Shown here in pieces: positions 7,489 through 32,027 of a DNA stretch of 64,000 nucleotides. Made by a program: the position numbers and the translations under genes. Below the pieces are notes generated by a model, which ran no database searches, was not told where the DNA came from, and saw only the letters and a list, made by a program, of their open reading frames with translations. Source of the DNA: Roseibaca calidilacus (GTDB taxonomy: Bacteria > Pseudomonadota > Alphaproteobacteria > Rhodobacterales > Rhodobacteraceae); the NCBI RefSeq assembly GCF_001517585.1, contig NZ_FBYC01000004.1:1879501-1943500 (forward strand). Reading direction: 5' to 3'. Positions within the stretch are counted from its first letter, which is position 1. Each line of letters starts with the position of its first letter.

Positions 7489-8442
7489 CTACTCCCACTC
7501 CATCTCGGAAAAGACCACGCCCGCATTCTTGGTCGCAAGCTCTTCGAACGTGTCCAGATGGGTATAGGGTGATTGATCGACATAATAGGCCGTGGACAAA
7601 TCCCGCCCTTCATCCAGATGTTCCCCGATCTTTTCACGCAGATACACAAGGTAATCGCGCGTAAACCGCCGCACCTGCGCCAGATTGGTCGGGTGGCCGT
7701 GGCCGGGGATGACATAGGTCGGGTTCAACGGCTCGAACGCGGTTTCCCATGTTTCGATCCAGCAGCTTGTGCAGGTGCCCTCAAAAATTGGCGGCATGCG
7801 TTCCTGAAACGCGATGTCCCCCGCAATCATCAGCGATTGCTCGGGCAGCCAGACCTGCGTGTCACCGGGGCTATGGGCAGGGCCAAGATGCAACACCTCT
7901 ATGCGGAAATCGCCCAACGATGCGTCATAGCTGTCTTCGAATGTCAGCGTCGGCGCCATGGGCACGGTGCCTTCGGCATTCTCTTGCGCGTAGTTCTGCA
8001 AGGCTTGTAGCCCCTGCCCCGCTTCGCGTTCATATTCATGCGCGGCGTCAACATGGGCCAACACGGGCACGCCCTGTTCAATCCAGTAATTATTGCCCAG
8101 CATGGCGTGGCCTTGTCCATTCTCGGCAATGACCAGCTTCACGGGCTGGTCTGTGCGTGCGCGGATTTCGGCATGCAGCGCCTCTGCCAGCTTGTAAGAG
8201 GCGCCGGAATTGACCACCACCACCCCGTCGCCGGTGATGATGAAACTCAGGTTGTTGTTATGGCCTGCATTTTCATAGGTGGGCGGCGCAGTTGCGCCAA
8301 TGGACGACCAAACATTGGGGATCACCTCGACCGGTTTGTTATACAGCACCGATTGCGGGTATTTGTCGGCAATGTCCTCAGAGGCCAGCGCGCTGCCAGC
8401 CCACAGCGCCGCGGTCAGGGTCAGCAGAATGGGGCGTGCCAT
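7489..8442 (-). CDS. Periplasmic metallo-beta-lactamase-fold protein, SoxH-like, altered metal site
   Basis: The 317-residue protein has a signal peptide of about 20 residues and the metallo-beta-lactamase fold seen in SoxH and in quinoprotein-relay hydrolases. The later ligands are recognisable: His190 in GPAHSPGD, Asp209 in IAGDIAF and His248 in IPGHGHPT. The first motif, normally HxHxDH, reads NGQGHAMLGN, so only one histidine (112) remains and zinc binding must differ. It is separated by three bases from the gene at 8446 in the same direction. Proximity to sox genes suggests a role in sulfur or alcohol oxidation, but no substrate can be named. Confidence 0.75.
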   Translation of the reverse strand: MARPILLTLTAALWAGSALASEDIADKYPQSVLYNKPVEVIPNVWSSIGATAPPTYENAGHNNNLSFIITGDGVVVVNSGASYKLAEALHAEIRARTDQPVKLVIAENGQGHAMLGNNYWIEQGVPVLAHVDAAHEYEREAGQGLQALQNYAQENAEGTVPMAPTLTFEDSYDASLGDFRIEVLHLGPAHSPGDTQVWLPEQSLMIAGDIAFQERMPPIFEGTCTSCWIETWETAFEPLNPTYVIPGHGHPTNLAQVRRFTRDYLVYLREKIGEHLDEGRDLSTAYYVDQSPYTHLDTFEELATKNAGVVFSEMEWE

Positions 8443-21797: not shown

Positions 21798-22763
21798 GTG
21801 TCATCCCAAGTGATCGAAGATGCAATCAAGGCTGGCCGCGACGTGCTGCATACGGAAGCGCGCGCTCTGCACCGGATGGCCGACAATCTTGGACCGGAAT
21901 TTGCGCAAGCCGTGGAAACGCTAACCGGGCTAAAAGGCCGGCTTATTGTCGTCGGCATTGGCAAATCCGGGCATGTGGGGCGCAAGATGGCCGCGACCTT
22001 TGCCTCGACCGGGACGCCCGCGCATTTCGTGCATGCATCGGAAGCCAGCCACGGTGATCTTGGCATGATTACCCAAGACGATTGCTGCATCCTGCTGTCC
22101 AATTCCGGCGAGTCGCGGGAATTGAGTGATGTGATCAACTACACACGCCGGTTCAACATTCCGATGATTGCCATTACCCGCGTGCTGCACAGCACGCTGG
22201 GCAGCCGTGCCGATATCGTGCTGGCCTTGCCAGACGAACCCGAAGCTTGCGCCATTGGCATGGCGCCGACCACTTCGACCACGGCCAGCATGGCGCTGGG
22301 CGATGCGCTGGCCGTCGCGGTTATGCGCCGCAAAGGGTTTGACCCTGAAAATTTCCACATTTTTCACCCCGGCGGCAAGCTGGGTGCGCAATTTCTGCGC
22401 GTGTCGGACCTGATGTATACCGGCGATCTTCTCCCGCTGGTGCAAGAAGATACGCCCATGCCCGATGTGCTGATGCGGATGACGGGAACCGGCTATGGCG
22501 TGGCGATCATCGTTGATGGACAGCGCCTGACCGGTATCATCACCGATGGCGATCTGCGCCGCAACATGGACGGCTTGATGACCCGCCGCGCAGGCGATGT
22601 GGCCACCCGAAACCCCAAGACCATCACCCCGGAATCATTGGTGTCAGAAGCCGTGGCGGTGATGAACGCCAAGAAGGTGACAGCGCTTTGCGTGGTGAAC
22701 GACACAGAAAGCCTGTCAGGCTTGATCCGGCTGCACGACTGCCTGCGCGCCGGTGTGGTATGA
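21798..22763 (+). CDS. kdsD: D-arabinose 5-phosphate isomerase KdsD
   Basis: KdsD converts ribulose 5-phosphate to arabinose 5-phosphate, the first step to Kdo of lipopolysaccharide. From GTG 21798 it has 321 residues: an SIS domain (VVGIGKSGHVGRKMAATFASTGTPA and later SNSGESREL) and two C-terminal CBS domains from about 200 to 318. The start is a choice between GTG 21798, with AAAAGG nine bases upstream, and GTG 21747 without such a site. The waaA-type gene follows, matching a Kdo function. Confidence 0.9.
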   Translation: MSSQVIEDAIKAGRDVLHTEARALHRMADNLGPEFAQAVETLTGLKGRLIVVGIGKSGHVGRKMAATFASTGTPAHFVHASEASHGDLGMITQDDCCILLSNSGESRELSDVINYTRRFNIPMIAITRVLHSTLGSRADIVLALPDEPEACAIGMAPTTSTTASMALGDALAVAVMRRKGFDPENFHIFHPGGKLGAQFLRVSDLMYTGDLLPLVQEDTPMPDVLMRMTGTGYGVAIIVDGQRLTGIITDGDLRRNMDGLMTRRAGDVATRNPKTITPESLVSEAVAVMNAKKVTALCVVNDTESLSGLIRLHDCLRAGVV

Positions 22764-22833
22764 CGCGGGCTCTATTTGTTACCTATGATCTGCGGCCGAC
22801 TACTGTGGCGGCTAGTATCACGGAACCCTTGCG

Positions 22834-24030
22834 ATGACACCGCGTCGCCCGCTGCTACTGCAAGCCTATCTCGGTCTCAGCCGAATGCTACCAAGCCTGT
22901 GGCACGGACTGGCTAAACAGATTCACCGGCACCAAGCTGCCAAGCGGGACCGGTTCCGCGAACGGCTGGGACATTCGAGCATACCGCGCCCAAGCGGTCG
23001 GGTAATTTGGGTGCATGCAGAGTCTGTAGGCGAGGTGAGCACAGTCGCCAGCCTATTGCACGATATCGCCGAGCACGGCCATATCGTGATAACGACAACA
23101 ACGCAAAGCGGAGCCGAACGGGTTGAAAGTCTGGGGTCGGAACGCATCCTGCATCAGTTCAAACCCGCCGATACACCGGTTGCGATTGGGCGTTTTCTTG
23201 ACCATTGGCGCCCCCGCGCCGCTGTGTTCGTAGAAAGCGACATGCCGCCGGTTGCGCTGTCCATCTTGCGACAACGCGGCATCGCCCGTGCGCTTTTAGC
23301 GGCCCGTCCCTCGGGAACGCGGCGCAGGGCCCCGAAAATCGCTGCGGCTCTACTTGCAGAATTTGACCTCGTGACCGCCAGTTCGCAAAGCGTGGCGGAC
23401 GAGCTTGAGGGCCTAAAGGTCAAGGTCCATCATGTCGAAGACCTGAAAGCCTATCAAAGCGCGGTGACGGAACCGTTACCTTGGTCTGAGGCACAACGCA
23501 CAAGGCCCATCTGGTTGGCCGTATCGGCGCATCCCGAAGAGTATGATTTGCTTTTTGCCGCCCACGATCACCTCCAAGCCCGTGAGCCGACCGCGCTGAT
23601 GGTGATCGCGCCGCGCCATCCCGTGTCAAGCCGGGCATGGGCCCCAAAGCGCTTTGCACCGGTGTTTTTTTCGGATGGTCATCAACCAAAAGATGACACA
23701 GGGCTGTTCGTGATGGATGCATTTGGCCACGTGCCACAACTTCACCTGTTAAGCCATGTTAGCTTTATCGGCGGATCCTTGGGCAAGCGGGGCGGCCATA
23801 GTCCGTGGGAAGCTGCGCGCGCAGGGAGCTACATTCTGACCGGGCCAGATATTGCCAATAACGCACCCGCCTATAACGGGCTTGCGCATGAAATCATCAC
23901 GACGCCTAACGCGCTTGCCGATGCGGTTTGCAAGGCATGGGCTGCGCCCCGCCCTGCGCCAATCTTGCGTAGCGCCAAGAACAGCCAGACCACCCGCGCC
24001 GTGCTGGACATGTTGCAGGCCCAATGCTGA
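22834..24030 (+). CDS. waaA: 3-deoxy-D-manno-octulosonic acid transferase (KdtA/WaaA family)
   Basis: WaaA (GT30) attaches Kdo to lipid A on the cytoplasmic face of the inner membrane. The 398-residue protein shows the family pattern: HAESVGEVSTVASLL in the N-terminal GT-B domain (the Glu-containing ASVGE-type motif), VFVESDMPPVAL, VSAHPEEYDLL, VMIAPRHP-like and FIGGSLGKRGGHSPWEAA in the donor-binding domain. It has no obvious N-terminal anchor beyond a hydrophobic stretch. It follows kdsD with 70 bases between. Bases 22764-22833 contain no gene. Sequence similarity is lower than in typical WaaA, so a paralogue is possible. Confidence 0.8.
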   Translation: MTPRRPLLLQAYLGLSRMLPSLWHGLAKQIHRHQAAKRDRFRERLGHSSIPRPSGRVIWVHAESVGEVSTVASLLHDIAEHGHIVITTTTQSGAERVESLGSERILHQFKPADTPVAIGRFLDHWRPRAAVFVESDMPPVALSILRQRGIARALLAARPSGTRRRAPKIAAALLAEFDLVTASSQSVADELEGLKVKVHHVEDLKAYQSAVTEPLPWSEAQRTRPIWLAVSAHPEEYDLLFAAHDHLQAREPTALMVIAPRHPVSSRAWAPKRFAPVFFSDGHQPKDDTGLFVMDAFGHVPQLHLLSHVSFIGGSLGKRGGHSPWEAARAGSYILTGPDIANNAPAYNGLAHEIITTPNALADAVCKAWAAPRPAPILRSAKNSQTTRAVLDMLQAQC

Positions 24031-24373: not shown

Positions 24374-24476
24374 CGCCTCTATGAGCTGAAATCTTCGCCA
24401 ACCGATTCGAACAACGATTGCCGCGAGTTAAGCTTCAATCTTGACGAACGGCGCAGTCTTGCCTAATGGACAGAGG

Positions 24477-25601
24477 ATGAAATCGCAGCGCATTATCGCC
24501 TATCTGGCAGAGCCCAATGCCGAGAAACAGGCCTTATTCAGAGCTGTGGCCAGAAGGCTTGGGTACGGGCAGTCCTTGGCGTCATGGCCCATATCGATCC
24601 GGGGCTACCCCGAGACGGCGGCGCGAGCGGAAGAATGTCTGGGCCGGGCCAAGAAACAGCCGCGCGGAACATTAGGTAGGGCGTTGAAGCGAGCGTTCCT
24701 CAAGGGGCGTTACAACTGGGCGCGGCGCTGGTTTTCCGCGAGGCCCGGAGCCGTGGCTATGTGCTGGCAGGGACTGACAGGCACGCGGCGGGCCTTCATT
24801 GAAGGCGCACGCGATGCCGGCGCGCCGACGCTCTTCGCTGAGCTGGCCCCGCTGCCGGGCCGCTGGACTTTGGACGCGCAAGGCGTGAACGCGGAAAACT
24901 CGGTCCCGCGACGGTGGGAGGCCTATGACGCGGTTGCCCCTAATTATGAGCTGCTCGCAGGGCTCCGCGAGGCTTTCGAGGCGCGTCAGCCGCGGCGACG
25001 CGACGTCGGCCAGAGCGACGCGCCGCTCCCCGAGGACGCGCGTTTTCTCTTCGTACCCTTGCAGGTGCCCGATGACAGCCAGATGATCCTCTTTGCCGGC
25101 TGGTGCGGCGGGCTGGAGGGGTTCATCGACGCGCTGGCGGAGGCCTCGGCGGCCCTACCCGAAGGCTGGCATCTGCGGCTCAAGGAGCACCCTTCGGCGA
25201 AACGCTCCGTCCGCGCGCGCATCGAGCGGCATATCGCGGCGGGCGCGCGGCTGGAGCTCGACAACGCGCGCGACAGCTTCGCCCAGCTCGAAGCGAGCGC
25301 GGGAGTTCTGACCGTGAACAGCTCGATGGGGCTCCAAGCTATGTTCTTCGACAAGCCGGTAATCGTCACCGGCGAGGCCTTCTTCGCCTTCGAGGGGGTG
25401 GCGCATCCAGCGGGCAGCCCGCAGGAGCTCGCACAGCTTCTGGCTGATCCGGACGCGCTCGGCCATGATGGCGACTTGCGCGCGCGCTTTCTGACCTGGC
25501 TGGCGCACGATTATTACATCGACTTCGACGGAAAGGCGCTGATCGACTCCGCGCAGCTTGGTCGGATCACGAAAAAGATAGAGGGGCCGCAGGATTCCTA
25601 A
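24477..25601 (+). CDS. Capsular polysaccharide biosynthesis/export protein (KpsS/LipB-like)
   Basis: The 374-residue cytoplasmic protein resembles the capsule Kdo-transferase/KpsS-KpsC group: LFVPLQVPDDSQM, HLRLKEHPSAKRSVR and the late VNSSMGLQAMFFDKPVIVTG motif. These are the residues of the GT-B like donor site in KpsS-type proteins. It probably acts on a phosphatidylglycerol-Kdo linker or a related capsule acceptor. GC is higher than in neighbours, and the surrounding genes are broken or accessory, which points to acquired DNA. ATG 24477 has GAGG close by; upstream TTG 24441 is possible but weak. Confidence 0.7.
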   Translation: MKSQRIIAYLAEPNAEKQALFRAVARRLGYGQSLASWPISIRGYPETAARAEECLGRAKKQPRGTLGRALKRAFLKGRYNWARRWFSARPGAVAMCWQGLTGTRRAFIEGARDAGAPTLFAELAPLPGRWTLDAQGVNAENSVPRRWEAYDAVAPNYELLAGLREAFEARQPRRRDVGQSDAPLPEDARFLFVPLQVPDDSQMILFAGWCGGLEGFIDALAEASAALPEGWHLRLKEHPSAKRSVRARIERHIAAGARLELDNARDSFAQLEASAGVLTVNSSMGLQAMFFDKPVIVTGEAFFAFEGVAHPAGSPQELAQLLADPDALGHDGDLRARFLTWLAHDYYIDFDGKALIDSAQLGRITKKIEGPQDS

Positions 25602-26379
25602 CCGCCATTTCAGCCTGTTCAAGACCTTCGTCGACCGCGAGCGAGGCGTGGCGCTTCTGCTCAATCCGAAGGTGCTCACGACGTTCACACGGCGCTTTCT
25701 GACCGATGGCATGCGAGAGTTCCATGGGCTCTCAGACCCGTCGGCAGGCCGCTATCGGCTGGTGAAGAATGCGCGGCGTTTTCCCATGGCACGGCTCAGG
25801 GATTACCTGCATTTCCGCACTCACCACGACGACTACAAGATATTCGCCTTCGTCCGCAACCCCTATGCACGGGTCTATTCCGGCTGGAAGGACAAGTTCT
25901 ACGACGGGCACAAGGGCTCTGACTACGGGCGGCTCTCGGGCTATCCTAGGTCCATGCGGCGCGGTGAACTGAAAAAGGCGAGGGCCTATTGTCGGAAACA
26001 TGGCCTGCCGGGGGCCGCTGAAGGCGAGCTGGTGCCATTTGCCAGCTTCGTACGCTACATGGCTGACCAGCCGCCGGGGGAGCGCAACCAGCACTGGGAC
26101 CAGCAGGTGCTTGTCCTGCAGCAGCCCAAGTTCAGGCTGGCGGGCGCTTACAAGATCGAGCATGAACTTGACAAGGGCATCAGGACGATCGCAGAAGCGC
26201 TGGAATTCGACCCTGACTGGGCCGTTACTCAGCTTAGCCGCAAAGCGAATGTCTCGAGCCGTTACGATGGCTCTGCGCACCCGATGACCGATGAGGTGGC
26301 CGAGGAAGTCTTTCACGCCTGCGAACCGGATTTCGACGTATTCGGCTATGACAAGGAAAGTTACCGGGAGCTTTGGTAG
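25594..26379 (+). CDS. Sulfotransferase-family protein with no standard start codon
   Basis: The reading frame has the carbohydrate sulfotransferase pattern: an N-terminal RHFSLFKTF-type segment, KIFAFVRNPYARVYSGWKDKFYD as the 3'-PAPS binding loop, and QHWDQQ further on. The homologous N-terminus begins before the first GTG (25648), in a stretch with no ATG, GTG or TTG; the first in-frame codon after the preceding stop-overlap is ATT 25594. It may initiate at ATT, be coupled to the upstream gene, or be 5'-truncated. The product would sulfate a surface glycan. GC and codon use match the KpsS-like gene rather than the flanks. Confidence 0.65.
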   Translation: MPNRHFSLFKTFVDRERGVALLLNPKVLTTFTRRFLTDGMREFHGLSDPSAGRYRLVKNARRFPMARLRDYLHFRTHHDDYKIFAFVRNPYARVYSGWKDKFYDGHKGSDYGRLSGYPRSMRRGELKKARAYCRKHGLPGAAEGELVPFASFVRYMADQPPGERNQHWDQQVLVLQQPKFRLAGAYKIEHELDKGIRTIAEALEFDPDWAVTQLSRKANVSSRYDGSAHPMTDEVAEEVFHACEPDFDVFGYDKESYRELW

Positions 26380-26438: not shown

Positions 26439-26723
26439 CTAGAACCCATATCGCGCGATGCAAGCCTGTTCCAAGAATGCAAGCGAAGCGCCTGCCCCCT
26501 CGCCCGCCTGCGCCACGTTGGTAAAGGCCTGGAACACCCGGTCAAGCTGGCGGTCATAGGCCAGATCGACCTTGGAGGACGGCAGCAGCGGCACAAAGCT
26601 GAAATTTAGCGCCGTGCCTTCGGGGAAGCACCCGGCGATGAACTTTACCAATTCGACACTGGTTGCTTGGCAGCCCCAATTGCCACGAAACCCGGTGAAA
26701 TTGATGATAACGATCCGTTTCAC
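26439..26723 (-). pseudogene. Truncated polysaccharide pyruvyl transferase
   Basis: The 94-codon frame encodes MKRIVIINFTGFRGNWGCQ followed by TSVELVKFI, the characteristic N-terminus of polysaccharide pyruvyl transferases, but stops at 26439 after ARYGF, whereas family members are about 350-400 residues long. It faces the sulfotransferase gene. The remaining two thirds of the gene are not present nearby. It is best read as a decayed gene at the edge of the accessory block. Confidence 0.75.
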
Positions 26724-26807: not shown

Positions 26808-26889
26808 TCAGGGTATCCGCATGGGACTGGCCTCTTTGAAAGGATCATGGGGCTTGTCGCCGATTGAGCAGTCAGGTGCAAGATCGGGT
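26808..26889 (+). repeat. Copy A of a direct repeat flanking the HAD-acyltransferase-UbiA-GtrA cassette
   Basis: About 80 bases here are closely similar to 31888-31971 in the same orientation. Shared landmarks are TCAGGG at the left end, CATGGG, a ggCCTcttTGAA-type block, and the best-conserved core CTTGTCGCCGATTG followed by GGTGCAAGAT. The two copies are 5.1 kb apart and lie outside the cassette of 26919-31714. No protein can be assigned to the repeat. Confidence 0.65.
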
Positions 26890-26918: not shown

Positions 26919-27551
26919 TCACGCACCATCTGTGGAGGTCAGGCGCAGCATGGGAATACCCATCTTTCGCACCTGCGCATGCAATTTCGGGCTTTCCGTG
27001 ACAAGCACCGCACCGGCGGCCTTGGCCCAGACATGCAGATCAGCGGCCCCGTCGCCAACATAGACAAAGCCTTGCGCGCCGTAGCGCTTGCTCAGAAAAG
27101 CTGCCTTGTCGCGCCCCTTGAGGTTGTTGCCAAGGGTGGACGCATGAACCTCATCAAAAAGCTCCAGATGCCCAGCGATCGCCCGCGCCGTGCCGTCCTC
27201 TGCTGCCGTGGCCAGCACAACCCGCCGCCCCGCCGCGCGCCATAGGCGGATCAGCGCCAGAACGGCGGCATTGTAGCGCAGGCCCGCAGGATCGAACGGA
27301 GCGCGCTGCGCCACGGCGCGCTTAAGGCCGGGACGCCCCCCTTGCGCCAAGGCCGCAGCCAACAGCACCGACGACCAAGGCGCGCGCCAAAGCAGCTGGA
27401 CCAATCCGCGCCGCAACATGTCGCCCGGCACAAGCGTGCCGTCCAGATCGACAGCCAGCACCGCGTCAGGACAGGCAGCCAACAGGCCGGCCGCGTCATA
27501 GAGTGCCGGTTTGCTGTTCATCTGCACAAAATCGACATGGTGATGCGCCAT
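26919..27551 (-). CDS. HAD-family phosphatase (UbiA-associated type)
   Basis: The 210-residue protein is a HAD hydrolase: motif I AVDLDGTLVPGD (Asp35 and Asp37), motif II VVLATAA, the lysine in NLKGRDKAAFL, and motif IV VGDGAADLHVW. It matches the N-terminal domain of HAD-UbiA fusions known from other bacteria, and here the UbiA partner is encoded separately at 30335. A likely role is removal of the 5-phosphate from decaprenyl-phosphoribose or a related polyprenyl-phosphate sugar, by analogy with the mycobacterial Rv3807c step. It is divergent from the acyltransferase gene. The start (27551 or 27521) is uncertain. Confidence 0.72.
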   Translation of the reverse strand: MAHHHVDFVQMNSKPALYDAAGLLAACPDAVLAVDLDGTLVPGDMLRRGLVQLLWRAPWSSVLLAAALAQGGRPGLKRAVAQRAPFDPAGLRYNAAVLALIRLWRAAGRRVVLATAAEDGTARAIAGHLELFDEVHASTLGNNLKGRDKAAFLSKRYGAQGFVYVGDGAADLHVWAKAAGAVLVTESPKLHAQVRKMGIPMLRLTSTDGA

Positions 27552-27644
27552 TTTTTGTTAGCATGGTTACCCAAAACCTACATAACTGCATAGATACCGC
27601 GCCAGAGTTTCCTTAATCTCAAGGTGGATTGTCAGAGTGTGAGC

Positions 27645-30338
27645 ATGGTCGGCGACATTCCTCGATTGCCTGCCAAAACACTTGGCATCGGCAGGATCGC
27701 GACCTTTGACGGGTTGCGCGGGGTTGCCGCACTGGTTGTCGTGGTATTTCACTTTCTTGCAATGCTTCATCCCGACTGGGTGTCTGATTACGCCCAAGCG
27801 CCTGCCTTGTTGCTCGCAACCCCTCTGGCGGTTTTCTGGAACGGTTTTTTCGCAGTCGCAGTGTTTTTCGTGCTGTCGGGCTTTGTCATGGCCGCCGCGG
27901 CAGAACGGCGTCACGCAAACCTGTTGGAGAACGCGCTGCTGCGCTACCTGCGGCTGGCGCTGCCTGTTTTGGCCAGCATTCTACTGGCCTACCTGTGGCT
28001 TAGACTGATGCCCAACGCCGCAGGCAACCTGGCCCGCAGTCTAGACGCCCCTTCGGAATGGCTGGCCTTCACGGCCCAAGGGCCGCTGCCCGGTTTGGGC
28101 GCTGCCATCCACGACGGGCTGGCGGGCAGTTTCATTACCGGCATGTCACCTTTCAACAATGTGTTGTGGGCCATGCAAGTGGAACTGGTCGGTTCGCTGT
28201 TCCTGTTCGCGGCCTACTGGCTGGGCGGGTTCGGACCTTGGGTGCGCTTTGCCGCATTGGCCGGGTTCGCCCTGTTGGGCCTGCTGGTGCTGCGCGATAT
28301 CTATCTATGTTTCGTAACCGGCGCGCTTTTGTACGAGGGCCACAAAGCTGGGATCTGGCTGAGGTTGCCGCCGGTCACAGGGCTGCTGGCGTTGGCCTTG
28401 GGGATGATGCTGGGCACGCCCGGCGGCAGATTTGCAATAAGCTGGCTCCCCGAATTCGTGCCGGACCGTTTGTATCCGGGCAACCCTTGGGGCTTGGCAC
28501 CCGTCGCGGGTGCCACGCTCATTCTGCTGGCGGCGCTTCAGCTTCGGACCCTGCAAAACTGGTTCAAAACTGCGCCACTGCAATGGCTTGGACGGGTTTC
28601 CTTCGGGCTATACTTGGTGCATGTGCCGATTCTTTATACTTTCCTTGCGTGGGAAAGGCTGACCCTTGGGCTGCCTGAATTGCTGCTTTTCCCTGCCTAT
28701 CTGGCTGCGGTGCTGGCCTTGGCGTATCTGTTCACACTTGTTGTGGACGAACCAACCTTGCGCTTGTTGGGCCGAATTCGCGAACAGCTTGCCCGCCTGC
28801 GCAGCCTAACCCGCGTGCCCAGCCTGACCGCCAGCGCCACCGCGCCGGTCTGGCCATGGGTCTTGTTGGCCAGCGCGGGCCTGATGGCCACGACCCTGAT
28901 AAATGGCGGTGTCGCCATCTATTACGACTCTGCCATTTACCTGCACCGTCCCGAGGGGATGTTGAGGCTACTTTCGTCTATGCCATTCATGGACCTCGTG
29001 CCAACAGACGCAGCGCCTGCCGCTGCCTTGCCGCAAGACAGCAACACGACAGGCGCTACCGCGCCCGCGCTTCAATTCAGCGGGCGGTCCATATTCTACC
29101 AGATCTTCGCTTGGTCAGGGCTGGAAGCCGGGCGGCTATGGTCACTGGCGGCGGCGCATGCGGTGATGGTGGCCTACCCGGCGGCCTTGCTGCTGGCGCA
29201 TGGGCTTGGCAGGGCACCGCGCTGGGGCTTTATTCTGGGTCTCAGCGCGTTGGGGCTGTTGACCCCGCTTGGACTGTCGATTGGCACGGCCATGCCCGAT
29301 ATCTTGGCGGGGGTGCTGGTGCTGGCTCTGACGGCGCTAATGGTCGGGTGGCAAGCGCTTCGCTGGTGGGATCGGACCTTGCTGTTGGCGCTGGTCGGCT
29401 TTGCGATGTTGTCGCATACCAGCCACCTTCTGTTGGCACCGGCGCTTGTCATCGCCGTGCTGTTGTTGCCCTTGCGCAGTGCCGCAATGTGGCGCACCGC
29501 CGCCATGATCGGGCTGGTCTGCACGGCGGTCGTAGGGTTCGAGCAGCTTCACAAGACGCTGCGCAACCAAGGCAGCGATACGATCCATGTCACGCGCCCG
29601 CATCTGACCGCACATCTGGTCGATGACGGGCCGGGCGTTGATTACCTGCGCCGCGCCTGTCCAGATGTCGGCTTCCGACTATGCGCGTATGTCGATCACC
29701 TGCCTATCGAGTGGCGCGACTTCCTGTTTGGTGGGTCCGAACCGGGCACGCGTTTCTTCGCCGATGGCCCGCCAGAGTTGCAAAAAGCCATCAGCCTAGA
29801 GCAATTCGCCTTCACGCGCGCCGTTGTCGCGGATGACCCGGTCGCGGTATTGGATTTCGCAACAGCTGCCTTCCTGCGCCAAATGGTCATGTTCGACCCG
29901 GCAGGGCTGCTACTGCCCGCCTATTTGATGGAGCGCATGGACGACAGGGCGCTGGCCCTTTTCGACGCCTATCCTGACTGGATGAAAGCACAATTGCGCA
30001 CGCTTGCCGTGGTCGAACAAGAGCACCTGCTCTCGATGCTGCATATCAGCACCATCGGCTTGACGCTGCTTGCACTGGCGGTGCTGGGACAGGCGCTCTA
30101 TCGGGGCGCAGAGCACCGCGCGCAACGCGAACTGGTGCTTGTCTGCGCGGCGCTACTACTTGGCGTCATGCTCAATGCGGCGATTTGCGGGGTTCTGGCA
30201 TCGCCCTATGACAGGTTTCAGGCGCGCATCATCTGGCTGGTCCCGCTGGCCGGGCTGGCGCTGATCGCGGCACGCCGCGCGCCCGCTGCGCGCAGAAACG
30301 GTCCCGACCCACATAAACCGGAAAGACCTTTCACATGA
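27645..30338 (+). CDS. Acyltransferase-3 domain fused to a second polytopic (GT-C-like) domain
   Basis: The 897-residue membrane protein has two parts. Residues about 20-385 are an AT3 acyltransferase: RGVAALVVVVFH gives the R-x10-H motif (Arg25, His36), and GLYLVHVPILY lies near the end. From about 400 onward a second set of some ten hydrophobic segments begins with INGGVAIYYDSAIYLHRPEG, an acidic extracytoplasmic loop of the kind seen in GT-C transferases and related alphaproteobacterial membrane proteins. The double-domain form is unusual. It probably transfers an acyl group and a sugar at the periplasmic face. Start at 27645 is uncertain (GTG 27624 is also open). It overlaps ubiA by four bases. 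Confidence 0.75.
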   Translation: MVGDIPRLPAKTLGIGRIATFDGLRGVAALVVVVFHFLAMLHPDWVSDYAQAPALLLATPLAVFWNGFFAVAVFFVLSGFVMAAAAERRHANLLENALLRYLRLALPVLASILLAYLWLRLMPNAAGNLARSLDAPSEWLAFTAQGPLPGLGAAIHDGLAGSFITGMSPFNNVLWAMQVELVGSLFLFAAYWLGGFGPWVRFAALAGFALLGLLVLRDIYLCFVTGALLYEGHKAGIWLRLPPVTGLLALALGMMLGTPGGRFAISWLPEFVPDRLYPGNPWGLAPVAGATLILLAALQLRTLQNWFKTAPLQWLGRVSFGLYLVHVPILYTFLAWERLTLGLPELLLFPAYLAAVLALAYLFTLVVDEPTLRLLGRIREQLARLRSLTRVPSLTASATAPVWPWVLLASAGLMATTLINGGVAIYYDSAIYLHRPEGMLRLLSSMPFMDLVPTDAAPAAALPQDSNTTGATAPALQFSGRSIFYQIFAWSGLEAGRLWSLAAAHAVMVAYPAALLLAHGLGRAPRWGFILGLSALGLLTPLGLSIGTAMPDILAGVLVLALTALMVGWQALRWWDRTLLLALVGFAMLSHTSHLLLAPALVIAVLLLPLRSAAMWRTAAMIGLVCTAVVGFEQLHKTLRNQGSDTIHVTRPHLTAHLVDDGPGVDYLRRACPDVGFRLCAYVDHLPIEWRDFLFGGSEPGTRFFADGPPELQKAISLEQFAFTRAVVADDPVAVLDFATAAFLRQMVMFDPAGLLLPAYLMERMDDRALALFDAYPDWMKAQLRTLAVVEQEHLLSMLHISTIGLTLLALAVLGQALYRGAEHRAQRELVLVCAALLLGVMLNAAICGVLASPYDRFQARIIWLVPLAGLALIAARRAPAARRNGPDPHKPERPFT

Positions 30339-31335
30339 CCCGTGACGATAGCATTGAACAGCGGCATCGGCGCCAAGCCCGGGCGGCAAATATCAAAGAC
30401 TACCTGCGCTTGGCCCGCTTTGACCATTCCACCAAACATATGTTCATCCTGCCCGGCATTGCACTGGCGCTGTTGCTGCGCGGCGATCAAGGAGAGCCTT
30501 TGCTGAACATCCCCTTGGGGTTTCTGGCAGCGATCTGTGCGGCTTCGGCGAATTATGTCATCAATGAATGGCTTGATCGTGATTTCGACCGCCATCACCC
30601 CGAGAAATCCGAACGCGCCGCCGTGCAGGTGTCGCTGGATATACGACTGGTCTACGCATGGTATGGCACATTGGCGCTTGCGGCAGTCGCACTTGGCTTT
30701 GCAATTCATGGCGGGTTTGGCGTGACAATCCTGTGCTTTCTGGCCGCCGGGCTGGTCTATAACGTGCCGCCGCTGCGCAGCAAGGACCGGCCCTATCTGG
30801 ACGTGGTGTCGGAATCCGTCAACAATCCGCTACGGCTGATGCTGGGCTGGGCCATGATCGACCCGGTCACCTTGCCGCCAGTGTCGGTTCTGCTCAGCTT
30901 TTGGTTTGGTGGCGCATTCCTGATGAATACCAAGCGCTTGGCCGAGTTCCGCGATATCGTGGCAGATTTGGGCCAAGCGCGCCTTGCGCTTTATCGCAAG
31001 TCTTTTGCCCATTACACCGAAGCGCGGCTGTCGGTGGCAAACCTGACCTATGCGCTTTTATGCGTGATGTTCCTTGCAGTCTTCGTGGCGAAATACCGCA
31101 TCGAATATGTGCTGCTGTTCCCGATTGTCGTGTATCTGTGCAGACGGGGTCGGTCGCGCGCAAACCGGAAAAGCTGTTTTCCGAAATTCGCCTGATGGCG
31201 GCAAGCGGTGCCGCGACGCTGGTCTTCGTTTTGACCACCATCTTTGACATACCGGTTCTGGACATGCTGGCCGAACAGCATTTCATCGACTTGCACGGCT
31301 TTGCGACCATTCCCGATCCGTCCCATGCGCCATAG
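30335..31335 (+). CDS. UbiA-family prenyltransferase, C-terminal frameshift
   Basis: The protein carries both UbiA aspartate-rich regions: NEWLDRDFD at about 77-85 and SKDRPYLDVVSESVNNPLR, the second typical of decaprenyl-phosphate phosphoribosyltransferase-like UbiA members. The frame beginning at 30335 leaves the family sequence after FPIVVYL and ends at 31195. A second frame, shifted by one base, continues with the family C-terminus (SVARKPEKLFSEIRLM, then a membrane segment IFDIPVLDM) to 31335. Thus the gene has an indel near 31130-31145. It may be a real mutation, removing the last membrane helices, or an assembly error. Confidence 0.75.
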
Positions 31336-31336
31336 G

Positions 31337-31714
31337 ATGACCCGAACTGTGCCCCGGCAACGCTTTTTCCGCTATATCCTGACCGGCGGCGCGGCGGCTC
31401 TGGTCGATCTGGGCGGCTTTGCGATGTTGTTGCAGTTTCCCGTGCCGATCGCGCTGGCCGGGACAGCGAGTTTCGCACTTGCCGTTTTGGTTAACTACAC
31501 GCTGACCTCGCGCTTTGTGTTTCAGGTGCAACCGGGACTGCAGCGCCTGCCAGCGTTTGCCCTTGGGGCTTTGGCCGGGCTTTGCATCAACATGGGGGGC
31601 ACATTGGGGCTAAGCGCCTTGGGCTTTGCACCGGTTTTGGCAAAATGCGCCGGCATCGGCATGGCCTTTCTGTTCAACTATGCGATCAACGCTGCGGTGA
31701 TATTTCGTCGGTAA
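31337..31714 (+). CDS. GtrA-family membrane protein
   Basis: The 125-residue protein has four hydrophobic segments and the GtrA signatures FFRYILTGGAAALVDLGGF, NYTLTSRFVF and FLFNYAINAAVIF. GtrA proteins assist transfer of polyprenyl-linked sugars across the membrane; Rv3789 does so next to the mycobacterial arabinan genes. It follows ubiA directly. Start is 31337 or an ATG at 31325 that overlaps the UbiA C-terminus; ribosome-binding sequence is weak for both. Confidence 0.82.
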   Translation: MTRTVPRQRFFRYILTGGAAALVDLGGFAMLLQFPVPIALAGTASFALAVLVNYTLTSRFVFQVQPGLQRLPAFALGALAGLCINMGGTLGLSALGFAPVLAKCAGIGMAFLFNYAINAAVIFRR

Positions 31715-31887: not shown

Positions 31888-31971
31888 TCAGGGCAGGTGT
31901 CTGCATGGGTCAGGCCCCTTGGAACGGATCACGGGACTTGTCGCCGATTGGGGGGGCGGGTGCAAGATGGT
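31888..31971 (+). repeat. Copy B of the direct repeat flanking the cassette
   Basis: This copy matches 26808-26889 in order and orientation, with the conserved core CTTGTCGCCGATTG and GGTGCAAGAT. It is followed by about 55 bases without a gene before the DUF2335 stop. Together with copy A it brackets the intervening four genes. In the 313 bases between 31715 and 32027 nothing else is visible apart from this repeat, the degenerate relative and the antitoxin remnant. Confidence 0.65.
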
Positions 31972-32027
31972 GTTGGTTGGGGCAGGCGGGTGGATACACA
32001 AGCTCATATCGAAGCAAAGCGATGAAA

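Follow-up and report, generated by a model that had tools for sequence, protein, structure and literature searches.

A window of 64,000 nucleotides of Roseibaca calidilacus (assembly GCF_001517585.1, contig NZ_FBYC01000004.1) holds, at positions 26919-31714, a cassette of four genes that we consider here as a candidate system for the decoration of surface glycans. Open reading frame (ORF) calling and Pfam place an HAD-family phosphatase gene on the minus strand (26919-27551; PF12710, 39.5 bits; DLDGT with D35), predicted to encode a phosphoribose 5'-phosphatase (PRP). The other three genes lie on the plus strand. The first (27624-30338) is a single open frame for 904 residues from a GTG, in which an AT3 (Acyl_transf_3) domain (27684-28799, the span of the hidden Markov model (HMM)) is followed by a second membrane domain, most likely a GT-C glycosyltransferase (28824-30311, set by HMM span, conservation, AlphaFold2 model and Foldseek); starting instead from the in-frame ATG 27645 would give a protein of 897 residues, in agreement with the residue numbering of the initial annotation. 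Next comes a truncated gene for a UbiA-type polyprenyl-phosphate phosphoribosyltransferase (PPPRS; 30335-31195; PF01040, 72.6 bits), then one for a GtrA family membrane protein (31325-31714), which is conserved near UbiA and is a predicted polyprenyl-phospho-pentose flippase; its Pfam score (PF04138, 64.3 bits) is that of an ORF starting at TTG 31244, the start at 31325 being that of a second ORF caller. Both the gene order and the fusion recur in genome G324 of the same genus (locus L048, identical to L052) at 55-79% identity, so that the arrangement is not due to chance.

The HAD and UbiA proteins match the first and second halves of one fused NCBIfam family, PRK08238, at positions 11-181 of 482 (166.3 bits) and 183-425 (58.7 bits), respectively. 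Decaprenyl-phosphate phosphoribosyltransferase models are about equally close to UbiA (up to 59 bits), and the only PDB chain matching it in sequence at E <= 0.01 is the decaprenyl-phosphate phosphoribosyltransferase 8j8j (E 6.2e-6). UbiA carries NExxDxxxD at 77-85 (N77, E78, D81, D85) and KRLAE at 200-204 (R201-E204), that is, the PPPRS motifs N-(D/E)-x2-D-x3-D and R-x2-E, with NE in place of the ND reported for the three-component pentofuranose systems (PMC11127046). The phosphatase, with DLDGT at 35-39 and its match to the HAD half of PRK08238, is of the HAD kind that those systems use, here as a separate gene. These domain matches support the candidate polyprenyl-phosphate pentose donor module that the initial annotation had put forward.

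For the second domain of the fusion we found no Pfam match over residues 400-904 and no significant match to any solved chain in a PDB sequence search with this half. The AlphaFold2 model of the half, built on an alignment of 44 sequences, has a predicted local distance difference test score (pLDDT) of 88.6 and a predicted template-modelling score (pTM) of 0.90. Its first Foldseek match in the PDB is ArnT (5f15; E 8.8e-3, probability 0.98), followed at ranks 2-10 by AglB and chains of oligosaccharyltransferase-containing complexes, and lower down by AftB, ALG9, AftA, PglB, Pmt and DPY19; GT-C enzymes make up 25 of the best 50 rows (probability 0.25-0.98), the other 25 having probabilities of at most 0.21. 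The C-terminal half is thus most likely a GT-C, and the modelling did not refute this reading of residues 400-897, the stretch that had been called GT-C-like from its letters. The model of the whole fusion is weaker (pLDDT 76.7) but usable, its AT3 part scoring 41-84 by blocks of ten; the Foldseek rows with probability > 0.5 are again oligosaccharyltransferases and other GT-C enzymes, and no AT3 structure is among the best 50 rows.

Conserved residues of the GT-C half are D435-x3-Y439, M557-P558-D559, H598, R864, R868 and W871. D435 and Y439 sit in the loop that follows its first membrane helix, a loop that in several GT-C structures is the site of the proposed catalytic Asp; ArnT has a similar Asp/Tyr pair. 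There are 6 Lys/Arg in the 39-residue linker and 6 in the 21-residue tail, compared with 4 in the 74 residues of the loop that follows the first helix. This distribution is consistent with a GT-C half that begins in the cytoplasm, and so with its direct fusion onto an AT3 domain with a cytoplasmic C-terminus. The AT3 part shows nine hydrophobic peaks in a simple hydropathy scan; stand-alone AT3 domains have ten helices (PMC9558356).

The association of this GT-C type with the donor genes extends well beyond the window. An alignment profile scan of genome contigs gave 140 GT-C relatives, the best 80 of which were kept; 43 of these loci and the window form the 44 rows of our tree. In the nine closest loci (L051-L059), UbiA lies near the GT-C gene in all nine, HAD in eight and GtrA in seven. 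One row of the UbiA profile (L050) was in the wrong frame, with 11 stops written as X; UbiA was matched independently by tblastn in L027, L028, L048, L049, L050, L052, L053, L059, L155, L156 and L159. The ten UbiA-linked rows (window and L051-L059), together with L060, constitute one clade (support 99/96), the exact placements being unsure for the long branches (L055, L058, L060 and others). The fetched flanks of L060 contain no UbiA, yet its genome holds a synthase elsewhere (50% identity), which makes the tie 11 of 11. Among the best 80 loci, UbiA falls inside the fetched flanks in ten, the tenth being L105, outside the clade, where a fused HAD-UbiA lies about 5 kb from the GT-C gene; some fetched loci stop at contig ends, and little weight can therefore be given to the absence of a neighbour.

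Two plasmids provide independent ties, stronger than neighbourhood. The 9,146-bp plasmid p9146 of Paracoccus aestuarii (L155, NZ_CP067174.1) carries GT-C, UbiA, HAD (which spans the origin of the record) and GtrA, along with BrnT/BrnA genes and an annotated mobV; its PLSDB type is non-mobilizable. On a plasmid of Rhodobacter sp. CZR27, an 885-residue protein (L156:5341-7998) joins HAD, a truncated UbiA and GT-C, and is followed by an intact UbiA and a GtrA; in the truncated UbiA the motif Asn and one Asp are replaced. Two lineages have thus fused this GT-C to different partners, one to the phosphatase and the other to AT3. The record annotates the CZR27 fusion merely as a haloacid dehalogenase-like hydrolase. 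Together with the loci of the clade, G324 and Rubellimicrobium rubrum (L059) among them, these plasmids show that the genes do co-occur elsewhere, as the initial annotation required.

Outside the clade the picture differs. A UbiA match (E <= 1e-20) was found in one (L090) of the 17 genomes searched from the 33 outside rows, L105 being additional, so that the GT-C family at large probably draws on other donors, with one subclade tied to UbiA. One could accordingly suppose that the GT-C half of the window protein also takes an ordinary polyprenyl-phospho-hexose, and that UbiA, HAD and GtrA are neighbours by chance. The 16 outside genomes without a UbiA match speak for this, as do GT-C members adjoining a GT2 gene (checked with Pfam in L030) or genes that resemble epimerases in their first residues. 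Against it stand the subclade linked to UbiA, plasmid p9146 and the fusion of HAD with GT-C, and we regard a hexose donor as unlikely. Conversely, the donor module appears to combine with different transferases. Of the five other alphaproteobacterial UbiA loci at E <= 1e-20 (L132-L136), the first three had neighbours scanned: UbiA lies near GT-C-like genes of other families, PMT_2 and GT87, in L132 and L134, and in L133 the one neighbour scanned is a GT2. Plasmid pRL10 of Rhizobium johnstonii has UbiA, HAD and GtrA with no GT-C match of this kind within 8 kb.

Counting the genome of the window each time, a GT-C relative (E <= 0.001) is present in 17 of 295 genomes of its family, and UbiA in 4 of 37 genomes of its genus and, at E <= 1e-20, in 6 of 385 alphaproteobacterial genomes; among the four UbiA-bearing genomes of the genus, the window and G324 have the whole cassette. 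Close AT3 relatives are rare, with 3 of the 295 family genomes at E <= 1e-30 and, at E <= 1e-45, the window's own genome only among the 385 of the class.

The AT3 half belongs to its family (PF01757, 90 bits against a curated cut-off of 31) and has R-x10-H (R32, H43), which we take to be the AT3 motif. No SGNH domain was matched by Pfam in the 904-residue fusion, the same library detecting SGNH in the genus-mate L150. We observed the AT3-GT-C fusion in three genomes (window, L051 and L052), whereas in R. rubrum the orthologous AT3 (48-49% identity) is a separate gene beside GT-C, UbiA, HAD and GtrA. We found no description of the fusion in the part of the literature covered.

The surroundings of the stand-alone AT3 orthologues suggest what this domain may act upon. 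We considered eight loci with 41-51% identity (L059, L137, L138, L157, L158, L160, L161 and L162), five C. sphaeroides records being counted once and one of them fetched. Six have, within about 6 kb of AT3, either UbiA (L059) or a phosphoribosyltransferase gene (L137, L138, L158, L160 and L162), as opposed to none of six control AT3 loci of <40% identity (L163-L168; Fisher one-sided test, p 0.009), in a comparison that is small, includes two close kin (L137 and L162) and three gammaproteobacterial controls, took its phosphoribosyltransferase queries from two of the test loci (L137 and L138), and left out nine more distant listed matches and one unlisted record. Against PF00156, the phosphoribosyltransferase of L158 scores above the cut-off, that of L160 barely so and that of L138 below it; those of L137 and L162 have no match and were recognised by 49-84% identity to the others, the latter being so named in its plasmid record. 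Two of these AT3-linked proteins contain a DIDG stretch of the HAD-enzyme kind, which brings to mind the cytoplasmic ribofuranosyltransferases mentioned in PMC11127046. This proximity to UbiA or phosphoribosyltransferase genes points to ribofuranose-bearing glycans as the AT3 substrate.

No epimerase gene was recognised in the cassette, and the DprE1-type domain ALO (PF04030) exceeded its cut-off in none of 13 genomes (that of the window and 12 with the cassette or parts of it), with one sub-threshold match in G334 and a positive result in the control, Corynebacterium glutamicum. Ribofuranose is for these two reasons the default sugar. In a route like the mycobacterial one, to which the initial annotation had likened the genes, DprE1/DprE2 encoded elsewhere in the genome would epimerise the donor to polyprenyl-phospho-arabinofuranose and the GT-C would be an arabinofuranosyltransferase. 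The likeness of UbiA to decaprenyl-phosphate phosphoribosyltransferase and the existence of rhizobial arabinosylation operons (PMC5080398) are in keeping with that route, but for want of a DprE1-type domain, and with no epimerase gene in the cassette, we rejected arabinose as the default and hold it to be improbable. The same machinery could also carry another pentofuranose, such as xylofuranose, formed by an epimerase like Citrobacter ORF13 whose gene lies elsewhere; the published GT-C accepts both ribo- and xylofuranosyl donors (PMC11127046). We judge this improbable as well, given that no epimerase was recognised in the cassette (no search for ORF13 homologues was made).

Our interpretation, which we consider probable, is that of a horizontally moving cassette for surface-glycan decoration, working like the three-component systems of extracytoplasmic pentofuranose addition described in 2024 (PMC11127046). 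UbiA would transfer ribose-5-phosphate from phosphoribosyl pyrophosphate (PRPP) to polyprenyl phosphate, judging from homology; the HAD phosphatase would strip the 5'-phosphate to leave polyprenyl-phospho-ribofuranose, and GtrA would flip this lipid to the periplasmic face. There the GT-C half may move the pentose onto a surface glycan made elsewhere, perhaps one based on 3-deoxy-D-manno-oct-2-ulosonic acid (Kdo) or a capsular one, a step for which the in-silico basis is the fold and the conserved acidic loop. The AT3 half, finally, could carry acyl groups, acetyl being the most likely, through the membrane and onto the pentose or an adjoining residue. Computation shows the order and co-inheritance of the genes, the domains they encode, a model of GT-C type, their presence on plasmids and in varied surroundings, and a lesion. 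A dual role of one protein in pentose transfer and glycan acylation, as first proposed, is plausible and indirectly favoured by the neighbourhoods of the AT3 orthologues; it stands as a prediction.

Several points weigh against this interpretation, besides the limits of the AT3 comparison. The NCBIfam matches of HAD and UbiA are all below the curated equivalog cut-offs. No Foldseek PDB match of the GT-C half reaches E <= 0.001 (the best being 8.8e-3), so that the fold evidence is of medium strength, and the template-modelling scores are low (<= 0.37 by query length). The association is incomplete as well: the profiles found no GtrA near GT-C in L053 and L054 and no HAD in L056, G310 has HAD and GtrA with its UbiA and no GT-C match in the 19 kb fetched, and G311 has UbiA alone, with no GT-C relative in 13 kb up to the contig end. 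AT3 seems to be an accessory, since most UbiA-linked GT-C loci lack it; the plasmid pDE of C. sphaeroides (L157) and C. azotoformans (L161) have neither UbiA nor a phosphoribosyltransferase gene in the 8-kb AT3 flanks, and the fusion of L051 has an in-frame TAA (8335-8337) within its AT3 part. The cassette of the window is itself probably inactive, as its UbiA is broken by a 25-bp deletion.

This deletion, recognised by DNA alignment to L051 and L052, is out of frame and maps to 31136-31141 on the plus strand, its 5' flank being the CTG at 31136-31138; both relatives read in frame across the 25 bp that the window lacks after 31138. Judging from tblastn positions, L027, L028, L049 and L050 have 33 nt at the site, against 8 nt in the window. 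The encoded protein retains about 268 native residues of about 344, followed by a wrong-frame end, and about 75 C-terminal residues are lost. The missing 3' end persists out of frame at 31147-31333 (plus strand), where tblastn gives 64.5% identity to L048 and 63% to L049, while the window UbiA is 79% identical to that of L048. Because the DNA beyond the lesion is still conserved, the deletion is either recent or a sequence error. An apparently disabling change is seen in two of the three fusion cassettes, this one and the TAA of L051; an error in the sequence of a metagenome-assembled genome is possible. The lesion, like the flanking repeats described next, is absent from the initial annotation; in this genome the system looks damaged.

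Just outside the cassette lie two 78-nt direct repeats, 79% identical to each other, at 26812-26889 and 31896-31973 (both on the plus strand). No third copy was found in the genome of the window, the next matches having E 0.38 and 0.71. Among 36 other genomes of the genus, five have the sequence once each (E <= 0.01); these five have no UbiA match, and in them it lies at the start of the Kdo transferase gene waaA (recognised by Pfam in L150 and by like first residues in the others). The left repeat is a remnant of the 5' end and upstream region of a waaA of the genus, and around the right repeat the sequence shows 93-97% identity to the single waaA 5' end of L150-L152. We had considered the repeats as attachment sites of a mobile element and rejected this, since they are waaA remnants. 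The waaA locus is syntenic with the window on the right from about 33087 in all five genomes, and on the left up to about 22763-22770 in four, the contig of the fifth (L154) being cut on that side. With syntenic flanks and waaA remnants on both sides, the cassette occupies a variable surface-glycan island at the waaA locus.

The genome of the window has no close copy of the genus waaA (best match 33-34%). The island contains a different Kdo transferase gene at 22834-24030 (plus strand; PF04413), whose product has about 30% identity to those of L150 and L151 by BLASTP, followed on the same strand by genes for a capsule-synthesis-like protein (24477-25601, or from a TTG at 24441; PF05159, 60.1 bits) and a sulfotransferase family protein (25648-26379; PF03567, 46.5 bits). 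A 94-residue ORF on the minus strand (26439-26723), with no Pfam match, resembles the start of a polysaccharide pyruvyl transferase gene and is possibly a remnant. In L150 the island holds instead an AT3-SGNH protein (L150:5550-7550), an FkbM methyltransferase and a protein whose GT8 match is below threshold, so that differently built acyltransferases occur at this site. In L048 the cassette has another setting, with scattered ABC-transporter-like matches to the window as the only likeness outside it. The module is real and conserved, and it is found on plasmids and in different settings.

The window cassette may well be a decaying remnant without current function, which we think somewhat likelier than its being active and which is compatible with our interpretation. 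The UbiA deletion and the waaA remnants on both sides suggest decay; the other three genes are open and the conserved UbiA tail makes the lesion recent or a sequence error, and decay here would have no bearing on the family in intact relatives. The genome has three further genes of the UbiA family. The function proposed above is that of intact relatives, for example L052.

One might speculate further, although we find it rather doubtful as a whole, that the 904-residue protein is a single-chain transferase-acyltransferase whose AT3 half acylates the polyprenyl-phospho-ribofuranose donor or the newly transferred ribofuranose, that its GT-C half founds a new glycosyltransferase family, and that a plasmid-borne module of four to five genes swaps GT-C and acyltransferase parts. 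If so, this AT3 subfamily would be dedicated to the acylation of ribofuranose, in lipid-linked and in direct, PRPP-dependent ribosylation alike. More soberly, the cassette widens the range of GT-C partners in pentofuranose addition by a group without a Pfam family, which phylogeny, a natural fusion of HAD with GT-C and a small plasmid link to the donor genes; we propose that pentose transfer and acylation are physically coupled and that ribofuranose-bearing glycans are the likely substrate of the AT3 subfamily.

Among known systems, the mycobacterial decaprenyl-phospho-arabinose route (Rv3806c, Rv3807c, DprE1/E2 and Rv3789), to which the cassette had been compared, shares with it the UbiA-type phosphoribosyltransferase and a small exporter, Rv3789 being of the SMR type (PMC11127046). 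This much of the analogy holds; the DprE1-type domain and the phosphatase do not follow it, and the AT3 fusion is absent from the mycobacterial route. Rv3807c is unrelated to the HAD-family PRPs (PMC11127046), and the phosphatase of the cassette, to which the comparison was confined, is an HAD protein, so that the proposed correspondence to Rv3807c was mistaken and the right parallel is the HAD domain of Citrobacter ORF15. Nor is such a system outside the actinobacteria new, with precedents in Citrobacter and others (PMC11127046) and in the rhizobial noeCNHOP operon (PMC5080398). The latter, by description rather than by sequence, is likewise an alphaproteobacterial polyprenyl-phospho-pentofuranose operon with a proposed phosphatase gene, so that such donors were already known in this class; it differs in following the arabinose route and in acting on Nod factor, which it D-arabinofuranosylates.

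As to the fusion, the AT3-SGNH acyltransferases OafA and OafB (PMC9558356) also have AT3 within a two-domain membrane protein that modifies surface glycans, with SGNH where our protein has GT-C; SGNH and alanine racemase are the commonest AT3 fusions given there. An acidic residue in the loop that follows the first membrane helix is common to the cassette GT-C, ArnT and other GT-Cs. SucT resembles AT3 proteins. A precedent for acylated arabinans is found in the SucT-dependent succinates on mycobacterial lipoarabinomannan and arabinogalactan (PMC10503756).

The closest parallel is the three-component system of Citrobacter youngae O1/O2, in which ORF15 combines PPPRS and PRP, ORF14 is a MATE flippase and ORF12 is the GT136 transferase (PMC11127046). 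We searched phages for a stand-in for GT136, which led nowhere; one unannotated 6.6-kb contig from human faeces, an unverified phage (L169, MT837543.1), has a UbiA-like stretch of 31% identity. Both systems have a UbiA-type PPPRS, an HAD phosphatase and a flippase, and both use a GT-C to transfer the pentose outside the cytoplasm, the GT-C being indicated here by model and Foldseek, though at E >= 8.8e-3; the D-x3-Y spacing of the proposed active-site loop is the same (D31/Y35 in GT136, D435/Y439 in the cassette; PMC11127046). The cassette differs in having HAD and UbiA as separate genes and GtrA in place of MATE, which is absent from the Pfam matches of the cassette and scanned neighbours, the stretch that this search covered, as well as in the AT3 fused to its GT-C. 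GT136 has a beta-rich carbohydrate-binding module after its last membrane helix; the window protein has about 21 residues after the last hydrophobic segment, with no strand there in the model. The cassette thus works, in our reading, like the three-component system and should not be filed under GT136, from which these features set it apart; it is best read as a variant of the published system with another GT-C type, GtrA for MATE and a fused acyltransferase.

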